Below are positions 46,497 to 55,224 of a stretch of 64,000 bases of DNA, piece by piece. Position 1 is the stretch's first letter; the number at the start of each line of letters is the position of its first letter. Origin of the DNA: Rhodomicrobium vannielii ATCC 17100 (GTDB lineage: Bacteria; Pseudomonadota; Alphaproteobacteria; Rhizobiales; Rhodomicrobiaceae); contig NC_014664.1 of the NCBI RefSeq assembly GCF_000166055.1, positions 3,503,501-3,567,500 on the forward strand. Direction: 5' to 3'. The notes under the pieces are model-generated. The model was given only the letters and a program-made list of their open reading frames with translations. It searched no databases and was not told where the DNA came from. The position numbers were made by a program, and so were the translations under genes.

Positions 46497-46752
46497 CTCT
46501 ATTGTTGCGCTGGCTCCACCGTCTGTTGTCAAGCAGCATCGAGGCCATCGGCGCGAAGACAAGCATTATCGGAAAAGTTGCGTCTGCGCGAGTGGGCTGA
46601 ACGGCCGCAGCGCCACGCGCCGCGAGCCTGCCCCCGCGCGATGACAATATTCAAAAATTTGTGGAAAAGCCTTTTACCGAGCGGAAGCAAAGGTGCGCTT
46701 CAATGCTGGAATATCCCCTCAGCTTTGACTAAGCGTATTGATGCGGAGGTCT

Positions 46753-48705
46753 ATGTCCGCACTCTCCCGAGTGTTGCCGAGCGGAAGCGAAAGCGCATCT
46801 TCAAGCCCCGATTTGCACAACATGGCGGTTAAGCGGCGCGGTCTCAAACCTGACAGGCGGGGGCGCATCCGGCGTTCGGGCGCCAAACTCAGGCTCGCGG
46901 TCGCGATCTCCGCATGCGGCGCGGTGATCGGCACCGTTCTTTTCTTCTGCGCTGTCGTCAACGAGGCGCGCTCTTACGCGGAAAGCCGCGCCTGGAACCA
47001 TGTCTCCACCCTTTCGGCCGCGTTCGAAGAGCAGGCGCGCGCAAACCTTGAGATGGTCGCGAGCGCGATTCAGTTTCTCAAGCCACAATTCGCGGAGCAC
47101 GGAACGAGCGTGAGCCTGATCGACTGGCGGACCTATCTCCCAGCCCTGGCCTCATCCTCAACCACGGTGCAGATCGCCTTCGTCGGGTCGGACGGAAAGC
47201 TGCTTGCATCGTCTCTTACCCAAGACCCGCCGCCAATAGACCTCTCGGATCGCGAACACATCCGGGTGCAATTGGAGGGGCGACCCGGCCTCTATGTCGG
47301 CAAGCCGGTGATCGGCCGCATCTCGCGGCAATGGACGATCCAGATCACGGACCGGGTGGAAGGCTCGGACGGGAAGCTTGCGGGCATCATCGTCTTTTCG
47401 CTTTCGCCGGACTCGCTGACGACGCTTCAGCGATCGATCAACCTCGGCAAAAGCGGCAGCCTGATGCTTGTGGGGACGGACGGCGTCATCCGTACATCCT
47501 TCGCCAACTGGCAGAAGACCGACGTCGCCCTCGTGGGAACGACATACCCGAACCTGCAGGCACTCACCGGCGGCCAACTCGCCGGGCAAAGACGCGTCCA
47601 TGATCCGCTGAATGGTTCCCAAACCTTTTTCCGCTGGCGCAAGGTCGGCGATTATCCGCTTCTGGTCTTGTCCGGGATCGCGGAGCCGGAGGTTTACGCC
47701 GCCGTCAACAGAGCAGCCGCCAAACTGGGAGCGCTATGCGCGAGCGTCCTGGCGCTTCTTCTCAGCCTGAGCTGGGTTCTAGCGCGTGAGATCGCGCGGC
47801 GCGTGGAACGGGAGGTCGCGCTTTACGATGGAAGTCGCAGGCTCGCGCTGGCGAATGACAGCCTGCGCCGCCGTCACCGCCAACTTGGCAGAACGAGCGC
47901 GGCTCTGGCAGCAGAGCGCGAGCGGCTTCAGCACATCAACGTGGAACTGAAAACCGCCAAGGAGCAGGCCGACGAAGCCAATCGGCTGAAGACCGCCTTT
48001 CTCATGAATATGAGCCATGAATTCAGGACGCCGATGCACGCGATCCTGAACTATGCCGCGTTCGGGTTGAAGGCTGCGCGCGGAAGCGACGAAGCGCGGC
48101 TGGAGAGGTGTCTTACGAACATACAAACGGCGGGCGACCGCCTTCTCGGCATGCTGAATGCGCTGCTCGATCTGTCCAAGCTCGAGTCGGCCTGGTCCGA
48201 TCTGGACAAGGAGCGCGGAAACCTCATGGACGTTGCGCATAGCGCCGGAGTCGAACTCGGCTCGCTTGTCGAGGAGAAGGCTCTGCGCCTGCGATTTGAG
48301 GCACAAACCAGCGACCTTGAAGCCGTATTCGACGCGCGGCGCATGATGCAGGTTTTCGTCAATCTGTTCTCGAACGCGATCAAGTTTTCTCCGAAAGGCG
48401 GAACCATCACCGTCACGATGAGCGATGACGCGATGCCCGACGGCGGCGAGGCCATCCACTGTCATATCGAAGACCATGGTCTCGGTATCCCGGAAGACGA
48501 ACTCGAACGCGTATTCGACAAATTCACCCAGAGCAGCAAGACGGACACCGGAGCGGGGGGCTCGGGGCTTGGCCTGACGATCTGCCGTGAAATCGTTCGA
48601 CTGCACGGCGGCCGCATATGGGCAGCCCCTTCGGCAAACGGGGCATCGATCCATTTCATCATTCCCAGAGCCGGACCCGATCAGATTAAACCGACCCGAT
48701 CCTGA
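46753..48705 (+). CDS. Membrane-bound sensor histidine kinase with periplasmic sensor domain
   Basis: About 650 residues. A first membrane helix (about 48-70) is followed by a periplasmic dCache-like domain (about 75-315) and a second helix (about 325-345). A coiled coil leads to the DHp domain, with phospho-acceptor H422 in M-S-H-E-F-R-T-P-M. The HATPase domain has an N-box (N-L-F-S-N-A-I-K-F-S), E-D-H-G-L-G-I-P and G-G-S-G-L-G-L. There is no receiver domain. Start: ATG 46753 has GGAGG very close upstream; ATG 46741 is an alternative. It should respond to a small extracytoplasmic ligand and phosphorylate a separate regulator, possibly the receiver protein at 50231. Confidence 0.9.
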   Translation: MSALSRVLPSGSESASSSPDLHNMAVKRRGLKPDRRGRIRRSGAKLRLAVAISACGAVIGTVLFFCAVVNEARSYAESRAWNHVSTLSAAFEEQARANLEMVASAIQFLKPQFAEHGTSVSLIDWRTYLPALASSSTTVQIAFVGSDGKLLASSLTQDPPPIDLSDREHIRVQLEGRPGLYVGKPVIGRISRQWTIQITDRVEGSDGKLAGIIVFSLSPDSLTTLQRSINLGKSGSLMLVGTDGVIRTSFANWQKTDVALVGTTYPNLQALTGGQLAGQRRVHDPLNGSQTFFRWRKVGDYPLLVLSGIAEPEVYAAVNRAAAKLGALCASVLALLLSLSWVLAREIARRVEREVALYDGSRRLALANDSLRRRHRQLGRTSAALAAERERLQHINVELKTAKEQADEANRLKTAFLMNMSHEFRTPMHAILNYAAFGLKAARGSDEARLERCLTNIQTAGDRLLGMLNALLDLSKLESAWSDLDKERGNLMDVAHSAGVELGSLVEEKALRLRFEAQTSDLEAVFDARRMMQVFVNLFSNAIKFSPKGGTITVTMSDDAMPDGGEAIHCHIEDHGLGIPEDELERVFDKFTQSSKTDTGAGGSGLGLTICREIVRLHGGRIWAAPSANGASIHFIIPRAGPDQIKPTRS

Positions 48706-48824
48706 CGGCCTCTATCGGAGAACCCGCCCAGATGGGTTGTATTATCGCGACTAAGACCCGGTTCTATATTGTTAAATATTGAAAGCTTATCCTTCCGAAA
48801 ACTTTCCATTTCCCGCCTAAGCTG

Positions 48825-50099
48825 ATGGAAATGACTGATCCGACGCAGCCGGAAGCTTTGCGGGATTTTGCCGCCGTTGCCGCGGAGGAGGAGCGTTTGC
48901 GTGCGCTCTACGAGCTCGACCTTCTCGATACGAGGCGAGAACGTGCTTTCGATCAACTCGTCGCCTTCGCCTCCAGTCTGTTCGAAACCCCCATCGCCCT
49001 GATCTCGCTCATCGACAGCCATCGTCAGTGGTTCAAGGGCAGGCTCGGCTTCCCTTACGCGGAAACGCCGAGAAGCGTGGCCTTTTGCGATCACACCATC
49101 CGGGGGAGCGGAGTCTTCGTCGTTGAAGATGCAACGCGAAACCCGATCTTCTGTCGAAACCCCCTTGTGACGGGCGAACCCCACATTCGCTTCTATGCGG
49201 GAGCGCCGCTCACACGGCGGGGTGGCCAGAACATCGGTTCGCTCTGCGTGATCGACCGGCGCGCGAGGACGTTTTCCAATCACGACGCCGAACTCCTTGC
49301 GAGCCTCGCGGATATGGTGGTGACGCTCGCCGAGGGCCGCGTCAGGAAGCGACGGCTCTTGAGGCGCGTCGCGCGCTTGCAGATCTTGGGGCGCAGCGAG
49401 CGGCTCAGGTCGGATTTCCTTTCCCACGTCTCCCACGAATTGCGCACGCCGATGCACGTAATTTTGAGCCACGTTCATAGCGGGCTGAAGATAACGTCGA
49501 AGGGCGGCACGTGGAATGCAGAGAAGCATCTCGCGAGCATTCACACAGCGGGAAAAAGGCTGCTCAACCTTCTCAACGACCTGCTCGACCTCCAGAAGCT
49601 GGAATCGGGCAAGGCGGCTTTTTGCTTCGAGCGCGGCGATCTCGCCGAAGTCTGCGAAACGGCGCAGTCGGAACTTTCCCCGCTTCTCTCGTTCAAGAAC
49701 CTGTCCCTCGCGCTCGTCGTAGAGACCGATAACGCCCAAACCCTCTTCGACCGCAACGGACTTTTACAGGTGATCGTGAACCTTCTCGCGAACGCTATCA
49801 AATACTCGCCCCAGAGCGGCGTAATCACCATCGTGCTTTCCGACGCGACCGCACCCCACCATTGCGCCCCCGGTATCATGTGCGCGATCTCGGATGAGGG
49901 CATCGGCATTCCGAATGACGAACTCGAGTCCATATTCGACAAATATGCGCAAGGCACGAATGCCAAGACCCTCGGCGGAACGGGGCTCGGCCTGTCGATC
50001 TGCCGGACCATCGTTTCCGCGCACGGCGGGAGAATCTGGGCGGAGAACGGCCGCGGACGGGGCGCTGTCATCAAATTCGTGCTTCCCCGCGCCGTCTGA
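48825..50099 (+). CDS. Cytoplasmic GAF-domain sensor histidine kinase
   Basis: A 424-residue protein without membrane helices. A GAF domain spans about residues 25-170 (L-I-S-L-I-D-S-H-R-Q-W-F-K and I-G-S-L-C-V-I-D are typical). The DHp domain has H204 in V-S-H-E-L-R-T-P-M. The HATPase domain carries an N-box (N-L-L-A-N-A-I-K-Y-S), S-D-E-G-I-G-I-P and G-G-T-G-L-G-L. The sensor may bind a small molecule or sense redox state. It follows the membrane kinase by 119 bases and resembles it closely in the catalytic half. Confidence 0.92.
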   Translation: MEMTDPTQPEALRDFAAVAAEEERLRALYELDLLDTRRERAFDQLVAFASSLFETPIALISLIDSHRQWFKGRLGFPYAETPRSVAFCDHTIRGSGVFVVEDATRNPIFCRNPLVTGEPHIRFYAGAPLTRRGGQNIGSLCVIDRRARTFSNHDAELLASLADMVVTLAEGRVRKRRLLRRVARLQILGRSERLRSDFLSHVSHELRTPMHVILSHVHSGLKITSKGGTWNAEKHLASIHTAGKRLLNLLNDLLDLQKLESGKAAFCFERGDLAEVCETAQSELSPLLSFKNLSLALVVETDNAQTLFDRNGLLQVIVNLLANAIKYSPQSGVITIVLSDATAPHHCAPGIMCAISDEGIGIPNDELESIFDKYAQGTNAKTLGGTGLGLSICRTIVSAHGGRIWAENGRGRGAVIKFVLPRAV

Positions 50100-50230
50100 G
50101 TGCCCCGCCCTGATCGTCCGCCCTTTCCTCGACGGAACCCTTCATTGCGTTTTCAGGTTTTTCTAGTTCCTTAGGTCAAAGGCAATTTGTCGCTCCCTCC
50201 GCCGTGCCGGTGGTTTTTCGCGGGTTCCGT

Positions 50231-51121
50231 ATGCGCAAGATCCTTTATGTCGATGACGATGCGCTGAACCGCGATATCCTGCGCGAGCTTCTGTGCGAAG
50301 GGGGCTACGATGTTGTGGAGGCGGACGATGGCGACACCGCGCTTCAGCGCCTCCACGATACGTCCGGCATCGATGCAATCCTCCTCGACCGGATGATGCC
50401 GCGCATGGGCGGCATTGAGGTGCTGAAAGCGGTGAAGGCGGATGCGCGTTTTGCCGACATTCCCGTCATCATGCAGACTGCGGCAACTTCCCGCGACCAG
50501 ATCCTTCAGGGCATCAAGGCGGGCGTCTATTACTACCTCACGAAGCCGTATGAAGATCAGATGCTGCTCGCCATCGTCGGCGCCGCGCTTCAGGACGCTG
50601 CGCAAAAGCAACGGCTTCGCGAGGAGGTGGCGCAACATCGCAGCCTCATGGGGCTTCTCGAACAGGCTCGCTTCCGCTTCCGCACCCCGCAAGAGGCGCG
50701 CAGCCTCGCCTTCCTCATCGCCAACTGTTTTCCCGAGCCGGAAGCGGCAATCTACGGTCTGCACGAAATGCTCTCCAATGCGATCGAGCACGGCAATCTC
50801 GGCATCACCTATGATGAGAAGACGCGCCTCATTCTCGAAGGGCGGCTGCGGGAGGAAATAGAGTGTCGCCTCGCTCTCCCCGCCAACCGCGAGAAATGGG
50901 CGTGGCTGAGCTTCGAAACGGACGGCAAGACGCTTCGGGCGCGCATTCGCGACCAGGGCAATGGGTTTGACTGGCGGCCTTTTCTTGACATCAGCCCCGA
51001 GCGGGCAATGCATCCCCATGGGCGCGGCATCGCGACGGCGCTAAGGATGTCGTTCAGTTCGCTTGACTATGTCGGCTGCGGCAACGAGGTGGTCTGCACA
51101 TTCGTCGTCGACGAAGCGTAG
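50231..51121 (+). CDS. Receiver domain fused to an anti-sigma-type ATPase domain
   Basis: A 296-residue protein. Residues 3-125 are a receiver domain: acidic D-D-D near 8-10, phospho-acceptor D53 in L-L-D-R-M-M-P, and the conserved Lys in L-T-K-P-Y. Residues about 165-296 form a HATPase_c_2 domain with an N-box (H-E-M-L-S-N-A-I-E-H-G-N), D-Q-G-N-G-F-D and P-H-G-R-G-I. This domain is used by RsbW/SpoIIAB-type anti-sigma kinases and lacks a phospho-His region. The ATG at 50231 begins the receiver directly; GTG 50204 is an alternative. No partner phosphatase, anti-anti-sigma factor or sigma gene lies nearby. Confidence 0.88.
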   Translation: MRKILYVDDDALNRDILRELLCEGGYDVVEADDGDTALQRLHDTSGIDAILLDRMMPRMGGIEVLKAVKADARFADIPVIMQTAATSRDQILQGIKAGVYYYLTKPYEDQMLLAIVGAALQDAAQKQRLREEVAQHRSLMGLLEQARFRFRTPQEARSLAFLIANCFPEPEAAIYGLHEMLSNAIEHGNLGITYDEKTRLILEGRLREEIECRLALPANREKWAWLSFETDGKTLRARIRDQGNGFDWRPFLDISPERAMHPHGRGIATALRMSFSSLDYVGCGNEVVCTFVVDEA

Positions 51122-51126
51122 CCTTT

Positions 51127-51151
51127 CCGATCAGGCTTTTAACCTGATCGG
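51127..51151. terminator. Stem-loop between convergent receiver and peroxiredoxin genes
   Basis: CCGATCAGG (51127-51135) pairs perfectly with CCTGATCGG (51143-51151) around CTTTTAA. No strong T-run on either side; it probably acts as a two-way terminator. Confidence 0.55.
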
Positions 51152-51172
51152 TGATCGGTGATCGGTGATCGG
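51146..51172. repeat. Tandem 7-bp repeat GATCGGT
   Basis: Nearly four direct copies of GATCGGT (three full, one lacking the last base) overlap the right arm of the stem-loop. Likely slippage expansion. Confidence 0.85.
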
Positions 51173-51193
51173 CGCTGAGGCGCAGGCGACGAA

Positions 51194-51679
51194 TCAGAGG
51201 TCCGCGAGAAGACGGTCAGCGCTGCTCGCCTCCGCGACGGAGGGATTTTCCTCCACGTGGAGCGCTTTCACCACGCCGTCTTCGAGCAGCATCGCATAAC
51301 GCTTCGAGCGGAGGCCGAGGCCGAACCCGCCCGCATCGAGATCGAGCCCGATTGCCTTGGCGAAATCGCCGCTGCCATCGGCGAGGAACACGATCTTGTC
51401 GCCCGCTCCCGTCGATTTAGCCCAAGCGTCCAGCACAAACACATCGTTGACGGCGGTGCAGGCCACCACATCGACGCCCTTCGCCTTGAAGTCGTCCGCA
51501 TGCTCGATGAAGCCGGGCAAGTGCGCGAGGCTGCATGTCGGCGTAAACGCGCCGGGAACCGCGAAGAGCACGGCTTTCTTGCCGCCGAAAAGCTCGTCCG
51601 TGGAAACATCGGCCGGGCCGTTCGCGGTCATGATCTTGAATTTCGCATTGGGAAGGTGAGTGCCGGGTGCGATGGTCAT
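51194..51679 (-). CDS. Peroxiredoxin, Prx5/AhpE-like thiol peroxidase
   Basis: A 161-residue protein from the ATG at 51679, preceded by GGGAGA. The peroxidatic cysteine is C49 in P-G-A-F-T-P-T-C-S, typical of Prx5-type enzymes that use glutaredoxin or glutathione. The C-terminal half holds R-S-K-R-Y-A-M-L-L-E-D-G-V-V. It reduces peroxides and alkyl hydroperoxides in the cytoplasm. The longer upstream frame is not supported. Confidence 0.94.
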   Translation of the reverse strand: MTIAPGTHLPNAKFKIMTANGPADVSTDELFGGKKAVLFAVPGAFTPTCSLAHLPGFIEHADDFKAKGVDVVACTAVNDVFVLDAWAKSTGAGDKIVFLADGSGDFAKAIGLDLDAGGFGLGLRSKRYAMLLEDGVVKALHVEENPSVAEASSADRLLADL

Positions 51680-51989
51680 GTTCTCTCCCTGGACGCTTGA
51701 ATTGGCCGATGCCCCGCGTCGCCTGGATCGGACCACGCGCGGAAGCCTGAGGATCGCTCGCCGTCGACGTGCGCCCTCCAAGTCTCGCCACGTATGAAGC
51801 GGCGCAATTCCTGACAATCCACCGGACGGCTTTTCACGATGACTTGAATGCCCCATCGGACACGCGAGCGAGCGCTGGGTTCCCGCCAGCAGTGATCTTT
51901 CATCCAACTTTTGGCAGGTGGCGGGTGAAAGCCTCGCTTTGGTCCAAAAGATGTTGCCGCGTACGGTGGAGGTTCATAATTTCGCTCCG

Positions 51990-53468
51990 ATGCCGGTGCG
52001 AGAACCGGACGCGCCATCACGGCTGCGATTTTTCTGGGGGAAGCGATTGGCGCGGCGATCTTTCGTTCTGTTCGTCTCTATGGGCGTCTTTCTGGCGTTT
52101 TCGCCCGAGGCTGCCCGCGCCGCCGACGATCTCATCAGCAACATTTTCGGATCGGGCGACGCCGAGAAGGCGACGGGCGCAGCCTCCCCTTCGCAGCGCT
52201 CGCCGGGGCAGAGCGCGCCCAGAGTCCGCGCCTCCAAGCCCCTCAGCAAGGGCATCGAGAACCGCATCAAGCCCAGCCGTCGCTCCGGCAAGGAGGGCAC
52301 GGCCGAGGCGAAGCTCGATAATGAGCAGGCGCGGGAGCTTTACATCCGGCGGAAGGCGCGGCTTGAAGAGATCAAGGCACGCCAGGGCGAGCTATCGAGG
52401 GACAAACGCACGCTGGCGAATAATCGCGCGCGGCTTCAGGCGCGTCTGGTGGAGACGGCGCGCTCGCTCAGGCTGTCCGAGAAGCGCCTCTCGGAGATCG
52501 AGACGCGGCTCGCCGAAACGCGCGAAAAGATGAAGGAGCAGCAGACGAAGCTCGACTCCAAGAGCCAGCAGCTTTCAGCGCTGTTCTCTCTCATGCAGGG
52601 GCTTTCGCGCCAGCCGCCGCCGCTTCTCATCACGCACACGCGCGACGCGTTGAAGATGATCCGCAGCGGCATGGTGCTCGCGACTTTTTACGCCGATGTC
52701 GAAAAACTCGCGACACAGTTAACGGCCGACGTCGATGCGCTGGAAGCGATCGAGAAAGACGCCGCGCTTCAGGAGCAGCGCCGCAGGATCGAGCAGGCGC
52801 AGAGCTTTCGGATCAAGGCGCAACTCGACCTCCTTATTGCCGAAAACCGGGAGCAGATACAGGCCAACGCGGCCACGCTGGAAAGTCTCGGCAGCGCATC
52901 GAAGATCAACGTAGCCAGCATCAAGAGCCTTGAGGACATGCTTCCCGCAATCAGCGCAAGCAAGGCAGAAGCGGATAACAAGGCGAACGAATTCAAGCCA
53001 GATGCCACGCGGGTTGCACTTCAGGCCGGCCGGATGAAGCCGTCGATACCTTTCGCTGCGGCGCAAGGTCTTCTGCCCGTGCCAGTACAGGGAAAAGCTC
53101 TTGTCAATTTTGGACAAACAACCGAAGATGGCAGTCCATCGAAGGGTATTCACCTAGAGTCGCGGCCCGGAGCACAGGTTATATCGCCCTGCGACGGTCA
53201 GGTTTTGTTCGCTGGCCCGTTCCGCTCATATGGTCAACTCTTGATTATCGATGCCGGTGGGGGCTATCATGTTGTAATAGCAGGCATGGAGCGGATCGAG
53301 GTCGACCAAGGTCAATTCGTTCTGGCCGGTGAGCCTCTGGCGGCGATGGGGTCTGAAACCCGCGCCGATGGAACGACGCCGAAACGCCCATCACTCTACG
53401 TCGAATTTCGTAGAGAGCAACAGTCTGTCGATCCCGCACCGTGGTGGTCTGCGGGAGGAAAAGGTTGA
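51990..53468 (+). CDS. EnvC-like murein hydrolase activator with LytM domain
   Basis: About 492 residues. A basic N-terminus and hydrophobic segment (about residues 22-45, ending A-R-A-A-D) form a signal peptide. A long coiled-coil region (about 100-310) follows and the LytM/M23 domain closes the protein (about 370-480, G-I-H-L-E-S, Y-V-E-F-R). The usual catalytic H-x3-D and H-x-H residues are incomplete, as in EnvC-type activators, which stimulate amidases at the septum instead of cutting the wall. The start is uncertain among GTG 51918, ATG 51951 and ATG 51990. It is 6 bases from ctpA, a conserved alphaproteobacterial pairing. Confidence 0.88.
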   Translation: MPVREPDAPSRLRFFWGKRLARRSFVLFVSMGVFLAFSPEAARAADDLISNIFGSGDAEKATGAASPSQRSPGQSAPRVRASKPLSKGIENRIKPSRRSGKEGTAEAKLDNEQARELYIRRKARLEEIKARQGELSRDKRTLANNRARLQARLVETARSLRLSEKRLSEIETRLAETREKMKEQQTKLDSKSQQLSALFSLMQGLSRQPPPLLITHTRDALKMIRSGMVLATFYADVEKLATQLTADVDALEAIEKDAALQEQRRRIEQAQSFRIKAQLDLLIAENREQIQANAATLESLGSASKINVASIKSLEDMLPAISASKAEADNKANEFKPDATRVALQAGRMKPSIPFAAAQGLLPVPVQGKALVNFGQTTEDGSPSKGIHLESRPGAQVISPCDGQVLFAGPFRSYGQLLIIDAGGGYHVVIAGMERIEVDQGQFVLAGEPLAAMGSETRADGTTPKRPSLYVEFRREQQSVDPAPWWSAGGKG

Positions 53469-53474
53469 ATATAC

Positions 53475-54833
53475 ATGCGCAAATCCGAACTCGCGCTCGG
53501 TGCTCTTCTTATTGCGCTGGTTTGCACAGCCAGCTTTTTCATTTTGCAATCCACGCGCCGGGATCAGGCCATTGCTGCGAATGCGGAAATCTACCGCCAG
53601 CTTGACCTTTTCGGAGAAGTGCTTGAGCGCGTCCGCGCGGAGTATGTGGAAAAGCCGGACGACACCAAGCTGATCGAAAACGCGATCAACGGCATGCTGC
53701 AAGGGCTCGATCCGCATTCGAGCTACCTCACGGCGAAAGAATTTCAGGACATGCAGGTGCAGACGCGCGGCGAGTTCGGCGGGCTAGGCATCGAAGTCAC
53801 GATGGAAGACGGCGTCGTGAAGGTGATTTCGCCCATCGACAATACGCCGGCCGATCGCGCGGGCGTGATGTCGGGCGACTACATCACCCATCTCGACGGC
53901 GAGTCGATCCAGGGCCTCTCGCTGAACGAAGCGGTGGAGAAGATGCGCGGACCGGTGGATTCGCCGATCATGCTCACCATCATGCGCAAGGGCGCGAATG
54001 CCCCGATCCAGACGCGCGTCGTGCGTGACATCGTGCGCATCAATCCGGTGAAGTACAGCGCCGAGGACGATATCGGCTGGATCAAGGTCAAGACGTTCCA
54101 GAGCGAACACACCTACGAATATATGAAGCAGGGCATCGAAGACCTGAAGAAGACCATCGGTCCGAAGCTCAAGGGCTACGTCCTTGACCTCCGCAACAAT
54201 CCCGGCGGTCTTCTCGATCAAGCCATCGCTGTCTCCGACGCATTCCTCGACAAGGGCGCGATCGTGCTGACAAAGGGCCGTAACGCCAGCGAGTCGAGCC
54301 GCGCGAGTGCAAAATCCGGCGACGTCACCGAGGGCAAGCCCGTTGTCGTTCTGATCAACGGCGGTTCGGCCTCGGCTTCGGAAATCGTGGCGGGCGCTTT
54401 GCAGGATCACAAGCGCGCCGAGGTGATCGGTACGCGCTCGTTCGGTAAAGGCTCCGTCCAGACCATGATCCCGCTCGGCGCGAATGGCGGCCTCCGTCTG
54501 ACGACGGCGCGCTATTATACGCCGTCCGGGCGCTCGATCCAGGCGACGGGCATCTCGCCGAACTATCAGGTGGAGCCCGAGCTTCCCGACGACCTCAAGC
54601 AGCAGATGGCATCGTTTACGCCGAAGGGCGAAGCGAGCCTGCGCGGACATCTGAAGAACGAGGGCGCGCAAGAGGCTTCCGGCAGCATCTCCTATGTTCC
54701 CAAGGAGAAAGAAAAGGACGTGCAGTTGAAGGCGGCTATCGACCTTCTGCACGGCAAGAAGATCGAAGTCGCGAAGAAGGTCGAAAACGCGGCGGCTCCC
54801 GCAGCGGCCGCGACTGCGGAAGTTCCGAATTAA
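53475..54833 (+). CDS. ctpA: C-terminal processing peptidase CtpA (S41 family)
   Basis: A 452-residue protease with an N-terminal signal or anchor (about residues 5-22). A PDZ domain spans about 95-175 (G-L-G-I-E-V and A-G-V-M-S-G-D-Y-I). The S41 core carries the serine-rich motif N-G-G-S-A-S-A-S-E near 295-303 and the catalytic lysine K325 in R-S-F-G-K-G-S. It degrades periplasmic proteins from their C-termini, including wall hydrolases; pairing with the EnvC-like gene suggests control of wall remodelling. An Ala-rich tail ends the protein. Confidence 0.95.
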   Translation: MRKSELALGALLIALVCTASFFILQSTRRDQAIAANAEIYRQLDLFGEVLERVRAEYVEKPDDTKLIENAINGMLQGLDPHSSYLTAKEFQDMQVQTRGEFGGLGIEVTMEDGVVKVISPIDNTPADRAGVMSGDYITHLDGESIQGLSLNEAVEKMRGPVDSPIMLTIMRKGANAPIQTRVVRDIVRINPVKYSAEDDIGWIKVKTFQSEHTYEYMKQGIEDLKKTIGPKLKGYVLDLRNNPGGLLDQAIAVSDAFLDKGAIVLTKGRNASESSRASAKSGDVTEGKPVVVLINGGSASASEIVAGALQDHKRAEVIGTRSFGKGSVQTMIPLGANGGLRLTTARYYTPSGRSIQATGISPNYQVEPELPDDLKQQMASFTPKGEASLRGHLKNEGAQEASGSISYVPKEKEKDVQLKAAIDLLHGKKIEVAKKVENAAAPAAAATAEVPN

Positions 54834-54865
54834 ACTTTCGCATCCGCAAATGCGATCCTATAGTG

Positions 54866-54900
54866 AAAAGGTTCATGCGAGAGCGTGAGCCTTTTTGCTT
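54866..54900 (+). terminator. Intrinsic terminator after ctpA
   Basis: AAAAGGTTC (54866-54874) pairs with GAGCCTTTTT (54887-54896) with one G-U wobble, followed by GCTTTTTG. It is 32 bases after the ctpA stop. Confidence 0.65.
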
Positions 54901-54924
54901 TTTGTCGAAGCACAGGGGTGCTCA

Positions 54925-55224
54925 ATGAAAACGCTTTTGATCGTCGCCGGGCTCTTTTTTACGCTTTTCGGAGGGGCCATCGCCTGGTTCGCCTCATCCG
55001 ATCCCGGACATGAATACGATCTCAGTCTGGTGATTCCGATCGATACGCGTCACATGCCGCGCGCGGTCAATTTGCCTAAGGTCGAGTCCACGTCGAGCGC
55101 GGAAGTCGACTCGCCGCCCGCTGTGGACGGGCGCGCGGAAGCGGGAAACGCACCCGTATTTCCCGAGCGTCCTCCTGTCCAACTAAACTATGCGACCGGC
55201 GCTGCATCGGAAGCCCCTCGATAA
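54925..55224 (+). CDS. Small single-pass membrane protein
   Basis: A 99-residue protein from the ATG at 54925, with GGGG about 7 bases upstream. Residues 2-22 form a membrane anchor; the rest is acidic, Pro/Ala-rich and periplasmic by charge. Not recognised. In many relatives the slot between ctpA and rppH holds a divergent polysaccharide deacetylase (YibQ-like) with a similar N-terminal anchor and Pro-rich linker; this may be a reduced version, which is speculation. Confidence 0.6.
   Translation: MKTLLIVAGLFFTLFGGAIAWFASSDPGHEYDLSLVIPIDTRHMPRAVNLPKVESTSSAEVDSPPAVDGRAEAGNAPVFPERPPVQLNYATGAASEAPR

Follow-up and report, generated by a model that had tools for sequence, protein, structure and literature searches.

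A two-component module of the TciKR/LvrC type, extended by a second kinase within that gene run and exerting its output through contact with a protein rather than with DNA, is probably encoded in a 64,000-nucleotide stretch of Rhodomicrobium vannielii ATCC 17100 DNA (NC_014664.1, positions 3,503,501 to 3,567,500; hereafter the window). The module comprises two histidine kinases, K1 and K2, and RR, a regulator joining a receiver to an RsbW-like ATPase. A preliminary description of this DNA had recognized a membrane kinase, a GAF kinase and a receiver fused to an RsbW-type ATPase without DNA-binding output, which the open reading frames (ORFs), Pfam and hydropathy bear out. The source genome, a single 4.01-Mb contig, is called G000, the four other Rhodomicrobium genomes searched are G001 to G004, and L numbers denote the loci that were fetched.

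RR (50231 to 51121, forward strand, 296 aa) consists of a receiver (residues 1 to ~125), a helical linker and an RsbW-like Bergerat ATPase (residues ~145 to 293). Pfam assigns Response_reg with 85.9 bits and finds no DNA-binding output domain. Numbered from the ATG at 50231, the receiver residues D8, D9, D53, T83, Y102 and K105 are present and conserved, and D53, which the preliminary description had also singled out, is the predicted phosphoacceptor. The ATPase retains an N-box (E179/N183/H187), a DxGxG motif (D241, G243, G245) and a GRG motif (G264-R265-G266); in 64 aligned sequences, these three motifs, as well as D53, K105 and T83, show either no variation or a conservation of 90% or more. 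A GTG at 50204 would extend the protein on the same strand (50204 to 50230), but it is the less likely start because the homologues of the genus align from the ATG. No SpoIIE (PP2C) match was found in RR, which thus does not show the bifunctional build of the SypE/HsbR type (HsbR being the name of PA3346).

The AlphaFold model of RR (pLDDT 90.6, pTM 0.80) was compared with the Protein Data Bank (PDB) using Foldseek, and the best match was LvrC (9QIH), with an E-value of 8.5e-18 over 313 columns, 22% identity and a TM-score of 0.44. A profile match of RR to LvrC 9QIH covers 6 to 295 of 301 (E 2.7e-29), and the LvrC chain is the sole PDB match at E ≤ 1 to the sequence of the ATPase half (E 1.7e-7). 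The VIA-align rows listed for RR cover chiefly the receiver, so that the absence of LvrC among them carries no weight against this likeness. With its receiver, its Bergerat ATPase and its full-length similarity to a characterized member, RR belongs to the receiver-RsbW-like regulators of the TciR/LvrC type. The system can therefore not be called undescribed, as the preliminary description had suggested it might be, since TciK/TciR (PMC12826045) and LvrB/LvrC (PMC13269768) share its build.

K1 (46753 to 48705, forward strand, 650 aa, with a TTG at 46738 as a possible alternative start) contains dCache_1 (45.4 bits, for a cut-off of 45), HisKA and HATPase_c domains. Hydropathy maxima near residue 50 (2.37) and residue 325 (2.26) predict a membrane histidine kinase whose extracytoplasmic dCache domain is flanked by two hydrophobic segments, and the predicted phospho-histidine, His422, lies within SHEFRTPMHAIL. 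K2 (48825 to 50099, forward strand, 424 aa) is an uninterrupted reading frame with GAF, HisKA and HATPase_c domains; its predicted phospho-histidine, His204, lies within SHELRTPMHVIL, and its hydropathy maximum (1.88, at residue 45) falls within the GAF domain, leaving no clear membrane segment. The three genes are co-oriented, with gaps of 119 bp between K1 and K2 and 131 bp between K2 and the ATG of RR. The catalytic halves of the two kinases, earlier said to be very similar, are indeed 47% identical across 234 aa, and K2 is the nearest kinase to K1 in G000, with 205 bits vs 114 for the next (15 matches, including K1 itself).

Catalytic regions of kinases from the loci of relatives, collected with K1 as query, and of G000's own kinases were placed in a maximum-likelihood tree. 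In this tree, 37 kinases including K1 and K2 are split from 44 others with a support of 100/98, and the same split was obtained (SH-like approximate likelihood-ratio test 85) under a mixture model from which five rows were dropped (L164_own, L165_own, L166_own, L097_4780 and the duplicate L029). L165_own, a wrong-frame fragment that falls on the side of the class containing K1 and K2, is excluded from the 37, while L020 and L029, which are one locus, are both counted. The class is defined by K1's relatives beside receiver-RsbW regulators, TciK itself being outside the tree: 35 of its 37 members are no more than 450 bp from such a regulator, and the two others are in such loci. Its signature is a histidine seven residues after the phosphorylated one (RTPxH), found in 36 of the 37 class kinases vs 4 of the 44 others; both K1 and K2 read RTPMH. 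Because both belong to a class found beside receiver-RsbW regulators, K1 and K2 are likely coupled to such regulators, although the surface by which K2 would dock has drifted.

A search independent of those loci pointed in the same direction. Of 289 alphaproteobacterial genomes, 3 encode a K1-class kinase (E ≤ 1e-42), and all three fall among the 18 of 289 with RR (E ≤ 1e-30); by our own arithmetic, the chance that both of the two further genomes would land among 17 of 288 is ~0.003. In one of these genomes (G173) the K1-class kinase is distant from RR, and in another (G156) one of three is on another contig, so that the co-occurrence is not just operon hitch-hiking. An exact DNA pattern for HELRTPMHAIL had a single match in the 289 alphaproteobacteria, K1 itself, and is too strict to serve as a census because the kinases of L173 read HAII or HAIM. 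Phmmer searches of the PDB with the K1 and K2 catalytic regions returned generic kinases, and LvrB was not recognized among the matches listed.

Each of the five Rhodomicrobium genomes searched encodes a nearly full-length RR. A K1 orthologue stands directly 5′ of it in G001 (94%), G003 (82%) and G002 (50%), so that, counting G000 with K2 in between, the K1-RR linkage is kept in four of the five; in G004 the contig begins within a K1-like 3′ end immediately upstream of RR. G002 has two kinase-RR loci, the second of which (L020, G002:C179) encodes an RR 53% identical and a kinase alike in the catalytic part only. In G003 (L018) the K1-RR unit is intact despite other flanks, indicating a local rearrangement relative to window positions 46753 to 54994. 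The S41 and NUDIX neighbours stand on the opposite side of the unit in G003, and the genes upstream of it resemble F1 ATP synthase genes. The conserved unit is thus the two-gene K1-RR pair: the three-gene order, which the preliminary description had proposed to look for in other genomes, is not conserved, K2 being missing in G001, G002 and G003, all of which keep the K1-RR core. A lack of conserved order had been named there as grounds for refutation; it holds against the two-input design and leaves the two-gene core standing.

K2 is present in G000 alone among the five Rhodomicrobium genomes, and in 60 other related genomes no full-length homologue was found at E ≤ 1e-60, the one catalytic-half match being in G002. 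Aligning the K1-RR spacers revealed that G001 retains a piece of the K2 3′ end in frame and G003 a longer, frame-broken piece, while no such remnant was seen in the short spacer of G004. Relative to G000, the deletion in G001 starts at ~48707, at the beginning of the K1-K2 intergenic stretch (48706 to 48824, forward strand), and ends near 50015, inside the 3′ end of K2. These remnants indicate that K2 was already there before G000, G001 and G003 diverged, and that at least G001 and G003 have since lost it. Two other histories were considered and rejected. A horizontal insertion of K2 in G000 alone is ruled out by the remnants at the equivalent place in G001 and G003, and a recent tandem duplication of K1 is ruled out by the tree, where K2 is closest by path to Asticcacaulis kinases (0.95-0.98), the K1 group being at 1.19 (to L017). 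K2 is probably an accessory, dispensable and cytosolic second input, and its loss in sister species constitutes a small natural experiment on the gain and loss of two-kinase wiring.

By Pfam, the neighbours of the module encode an OprB porin, a dCTP deaminase, a redoxin, a VTT-domain protein, a TPR protein, an M23 peptidase, an S41 protease and a NUDIX protein, and one ORF of 109 aa has no Pfam match. The preliminary description had noted that no sigma factor, STAS protein or phosphatase is adjacent, and Pfam agrees for the neighbours scanned; the association with a STAS antagonist and/or a sigma factor that characterizes RsbW/SpoIIAB anti-sigma kinases is thus absent among them. No partner gene was recognized beside RR within Rhodomicrobium, and the flanks differ in G003. 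A scan of the locus found no promoter-like site (1.3 expected) and six terminator-like sites vs 5.1 by chance.

We therefore turn to the wider RR family, in two sets of loci. The first comprises the best 80 by identity from at least 585 GTDB stretches, 538 of 585 encoding a relative at E ≤ 1e-3, possibly including receiver-only matches; two of the 80, L028 and L029, are Rhodomicrobium loci (G004 and G002). The second comprises 20 loci from the alphaproteobacterial sample (of 22 places outside G000, 20 were fetched, another falls within L173 and the last was omitted). A STAS gene is found no farther than 2 kb from the regulator in 10 of the best 80 and in 12 of the 20 alphaproteobacterial loci, a PP2C gene in 19 and 11, and either of them in 22 and 12, respectively. 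A control zone at 2-7 kb in the same loci contained one STAS and no PP2C gene in 657 kb of the first set, and neither in 172 kb of the second (829 kb in total). The counts from the best 80 are partly circular, because 7 STAS and 6 PP2C profile seeds came from those loci, while the 20-locus set is free of seeds. A Pfam check of eight neighbours agreed, assigning four as receiver-bearing SpoIIE (L170's is 0.3 bit under the cut-off) and four as STAS. Pfam also assigns STAS_2 to both STAS genes of G000. In a tree of 102 RR rows, the STAS- or PP2C-bearing loci are scattered across many branches.

The arrangement of these genes varies. In Rhodospira, Magnetospirillum and their kin (L048, L084, L094, L096, L102), the regulator is fused at its C terminus to a SpoIIE-like PP2C domain, giving proteins of ~560-600 aa, and a STAS gene adjoins the fused gene in four of the five loci (RR genes lie near 5.5-10 kb of each locus). 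Several betaproteobacterial loci show the order kinase, regulator, PP2C gene, the last encoding a receiver-SpoIIE protein in the three that were checked. A Burkholderiales metagenome-assembled genome (L036:2-10119) reads kinase, kinase, receiver-RsbW, receiver-SpoIIE, both kinases being of the RTPxH class. In 8 of the 20 alphaproteobacterial loci (L180-L183, L185-L187, L189), a set of STAS, PP2C and receiver-RsbW genes adjoins CheR, CheB and MCP-like genes, the PP2C often with a receiver-like match; in three of them a large kinase adjoins the receiver-RsbW gene. These eight are chemosensory clusters with a built-in partner switch, the Che and MCP names resting on similarity to the chemotaxis genes of G000. 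As separate observations, the Azospirillum plasmid loci L026 and L027 encode receiver-RsbW regulators of ~38% identity; a gene for a large kinase carrying the annotation "response regulator" precedes them, and a diguanylate cyclase gene in convergent orientation follows. A transposase-like ORF (L149:7981-8946) lies next to the second STAS/chemotaxis cluster of its genome. Taken together, the neighbourhoods favour the view that the partner in this family is usually a STAS protein. An earlier account of this STAS/PP2C neighbourhood, or of the K1-K2-RR operon, was not found among the papers listed in searches of open-licence PubMed Central, and the neighbourhood evidence is the new contribution of this work. 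In several alphaproteobacteria, where a STAS gene adjoins a regulator that is itself beside, or joined in one protein with, a PP2C, the question of the target becomes directly testable, with no need to guess at distant genes.

These data lead us to propose the following mechanism. The dCache domain of K1 would sense a small extracytoplasmic ligand, and K1 would then autophosphorylate on His422 and pass the phosphate to D53 of RR, as the operon, the kinase class and the genome co-occurrence suggest. Transfer from K2 to D53 may also occur, with a weaker case than for K1, and it is plausible that the two kinases would converge on D53. By analogy to LvrC, phosphorylation would free or rearrange the receiver on a dimeric RsbW-like ATPase, which could then grip, release or phosphorylate on Ser/Thr a partner protein. 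Across the family, the likeliest partner would be a STAS protein, with a PP2C phosphatase acting against the kinase; in Rhodomicrobium, where four of the five genomes show no such phosphatase, the partner may be distant or of another kind. The preliminary description had supposed a sigma factor or another partner controlled by contact. Contact fits a protein with no DNA-binding output and an RsbW-like domain that keeps its catalytic residues, while the target could be something other than a sigma factor, many relatives' loci pointing to STAS and PP2C.

Several observations weigh against this module as proposed. HATPase_c_2 scores 25.5 bits in RR, slightly below the cut-off of 27.4, although it is matched at E ≤ 0.001 by 63 of the 64 aligned family members, and the poor overall superposition (TM 0.44) means that the domain arrangement of RR may differ from that of LvrC. 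Adjacency to a receiver-RsbW regulator is not specific to the kinase class, as 17 of the 44 kinases outside the class also have one no farther than 450 bp away, and all kinases of the tree outside G000 came from regulators' loci with K1 as query. On the output side, STAS and PP2C genes are not at the locus, neither lies within 2 kb in 58 of the best 80 and 8 of the 20 alphaproteobacterial loci, no SpoIIE domain was found at E ≤ 0.01 in G000, G001, G003 or G004 (among the five, SpoIIE genes occur in G002 alone, which has two), and no stand-alone STAS was found in G004, which keeps RR and has STAS-family matches only in frames of 509 aa and 411 aa. Finally, K2 departs from the class consensus at three of five docking positions: it has V at His+8, H at +12 and S at +15, the residues in most of 36 class kinases being A, F/Y and hydrophobic, respectively; according to the HK853/RR468 work, such positions set specificity. 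Because these positions diverge and K2 was lost in relatives, K2 may not feed RR.

It is indeed a serious possibility, if one we lean slightly against, that K2 stands outside the pathway, having drifted to another receiver or being on its way to loss, and that the working system is plain K1-RR. The divergent docking positions speak for this, as does the failure to find K2 in four sister genomes, two of which hold remnants. Yet the K2 frame is open with its GAF, HisKA and HATPase_c domains, the kinase is of the same class, its gene lies on the same strand between K1 and RR, and another order of two histidine kinases followed by such a regulator, with both kinases of the class, is seen in L036.

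Another reading takes RR as a classical anti-sigma factor, which would hold an unlinked sigma factor and release or grip it upon D53 phosphorylation, with no STAS protein involved. Such an action has been proposed for LvrC (PMC13269768) and is one model for TciR in V. indigofera, which is reported to lack an RsbV homologue (PMC12826045), and it would fit both G004, with no stand-alone STAS found, and G000, with no SpoIIE. We nevertheless consider it rather doubtful, given that no sigma gene is adjacent here and that many relatives' loci, which were scored for STAS and PP2C only, carry these two.

A more specific STAS target may also be considered in G000. RR could be a receiver-gated Ser/Thr kinase of the CheS-like STAS protein encoded at ~2.77 Mb beside CheY-CheA-CheW-MCP, thereby bringing a two-component input into chemotaxis. 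In both Asticcacaulis loci (L030:4461-15168 and L031:5211-15131), the histidine kinase and regulator genes lie directly upstream of STAS-CheY-CheA-CheW-MCP, an order that Rhodomicrobium shows elsewhere in its genome (STAS by Pfam), and all three STAS proteins have a Thr aligned to the Ser of the DSAG stretch of other STAS proteins, their phosphorylation site. This target is unlikely, however: the arrangement occurs in just 2 of the best 80 loci, G004 keeps RR without a CheS-like STAS, G000 has no SpoIIE for the reversal, and CheS binds CheA in published work (PMC12654446). The broader idea that receiver-RsbW regulators are phospho-gated STAS kinases wiring two-component signals into chemosensory clusters, K1/K2-RR phosphorylating on Thr or sequestering the CheS-like STAS in Rhodomicrobium, is highly speculative and we give it very little credence; if true, it would let an extracytoplasmic ligand tune chemotaxis with no transcription step.

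The TciKR/LvrC-type module that we favour can be set beside several characterized systems. In Vogesella indigofera, TciK and TciR are encoded in an apparent two-gene operon for a sensor kinase and a receiver-RsbW regulator, both required for pigment (PMC12826045, December 2025). Its authors were aware of no functionally characterized protein of this build and named no target, V. indigofera having no RsbV homologue and anti-sigma action being one model. A kinase followed by a receiver with a C-terminal RsbW-like domain whose kinase residues are kept is common to both systems (TciR being compared by its description), but a single kinase is present there, whereas K2 lies between K1 and RR here. 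In Leptospira interrogans, LvrB phosphorylates LvrC, whose solved structure (9QIH) is receiver-gated and for which a sigma factor is the proposed target (PMC13269768, April 2026), and LvrA and LvrB form an operon and are partners in a phosphotransfer pathway (PMC5863495). The likeness extends to a receiver-Bergerat regulator, an acceptor D53 and two kinases upstream in the pathway; however, LvrA (a hybrid kinase) and LvrB (a receiver-kinase) work in the cytosol one after the other, as a cascade, with LvrC encoded separately by lic11110. Because neither K1 nor K2 shows a receiver by Pfam, these two could act only in parallel, unlike LvrA and LvrB. The counts of STAS and PP2C genes offer a testable alternative to the sigma-factor target put forward in these 2025-2026 papers.

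More distant likenesses exist with SypE of Vibrio fischeri and PA3346 of Pseudomonas, in which a receiver controls an RsbW-like kinase that targets a STAS protein (PMC12826045, PMC8256260). In SypE a PP2C domain, and in PA3346 a phosphatase activity, resides in the same protein, whereas RR has no PP2C match, unlike its distant relatives, the fused regulators of L048, L084, L094, L096 and L102. The RbaV/RbaW/RbaY system of Rhodobacter capsulatus is an alphaproteobacterial partner switch that is not known to have a sigma target, but there the receiver sits on the PP2C protein RbaY and not on RbaW (PMC3999984). The K1-K2-RR operon is thus a further member of the recently described TciR/LvrC kind of regulator.

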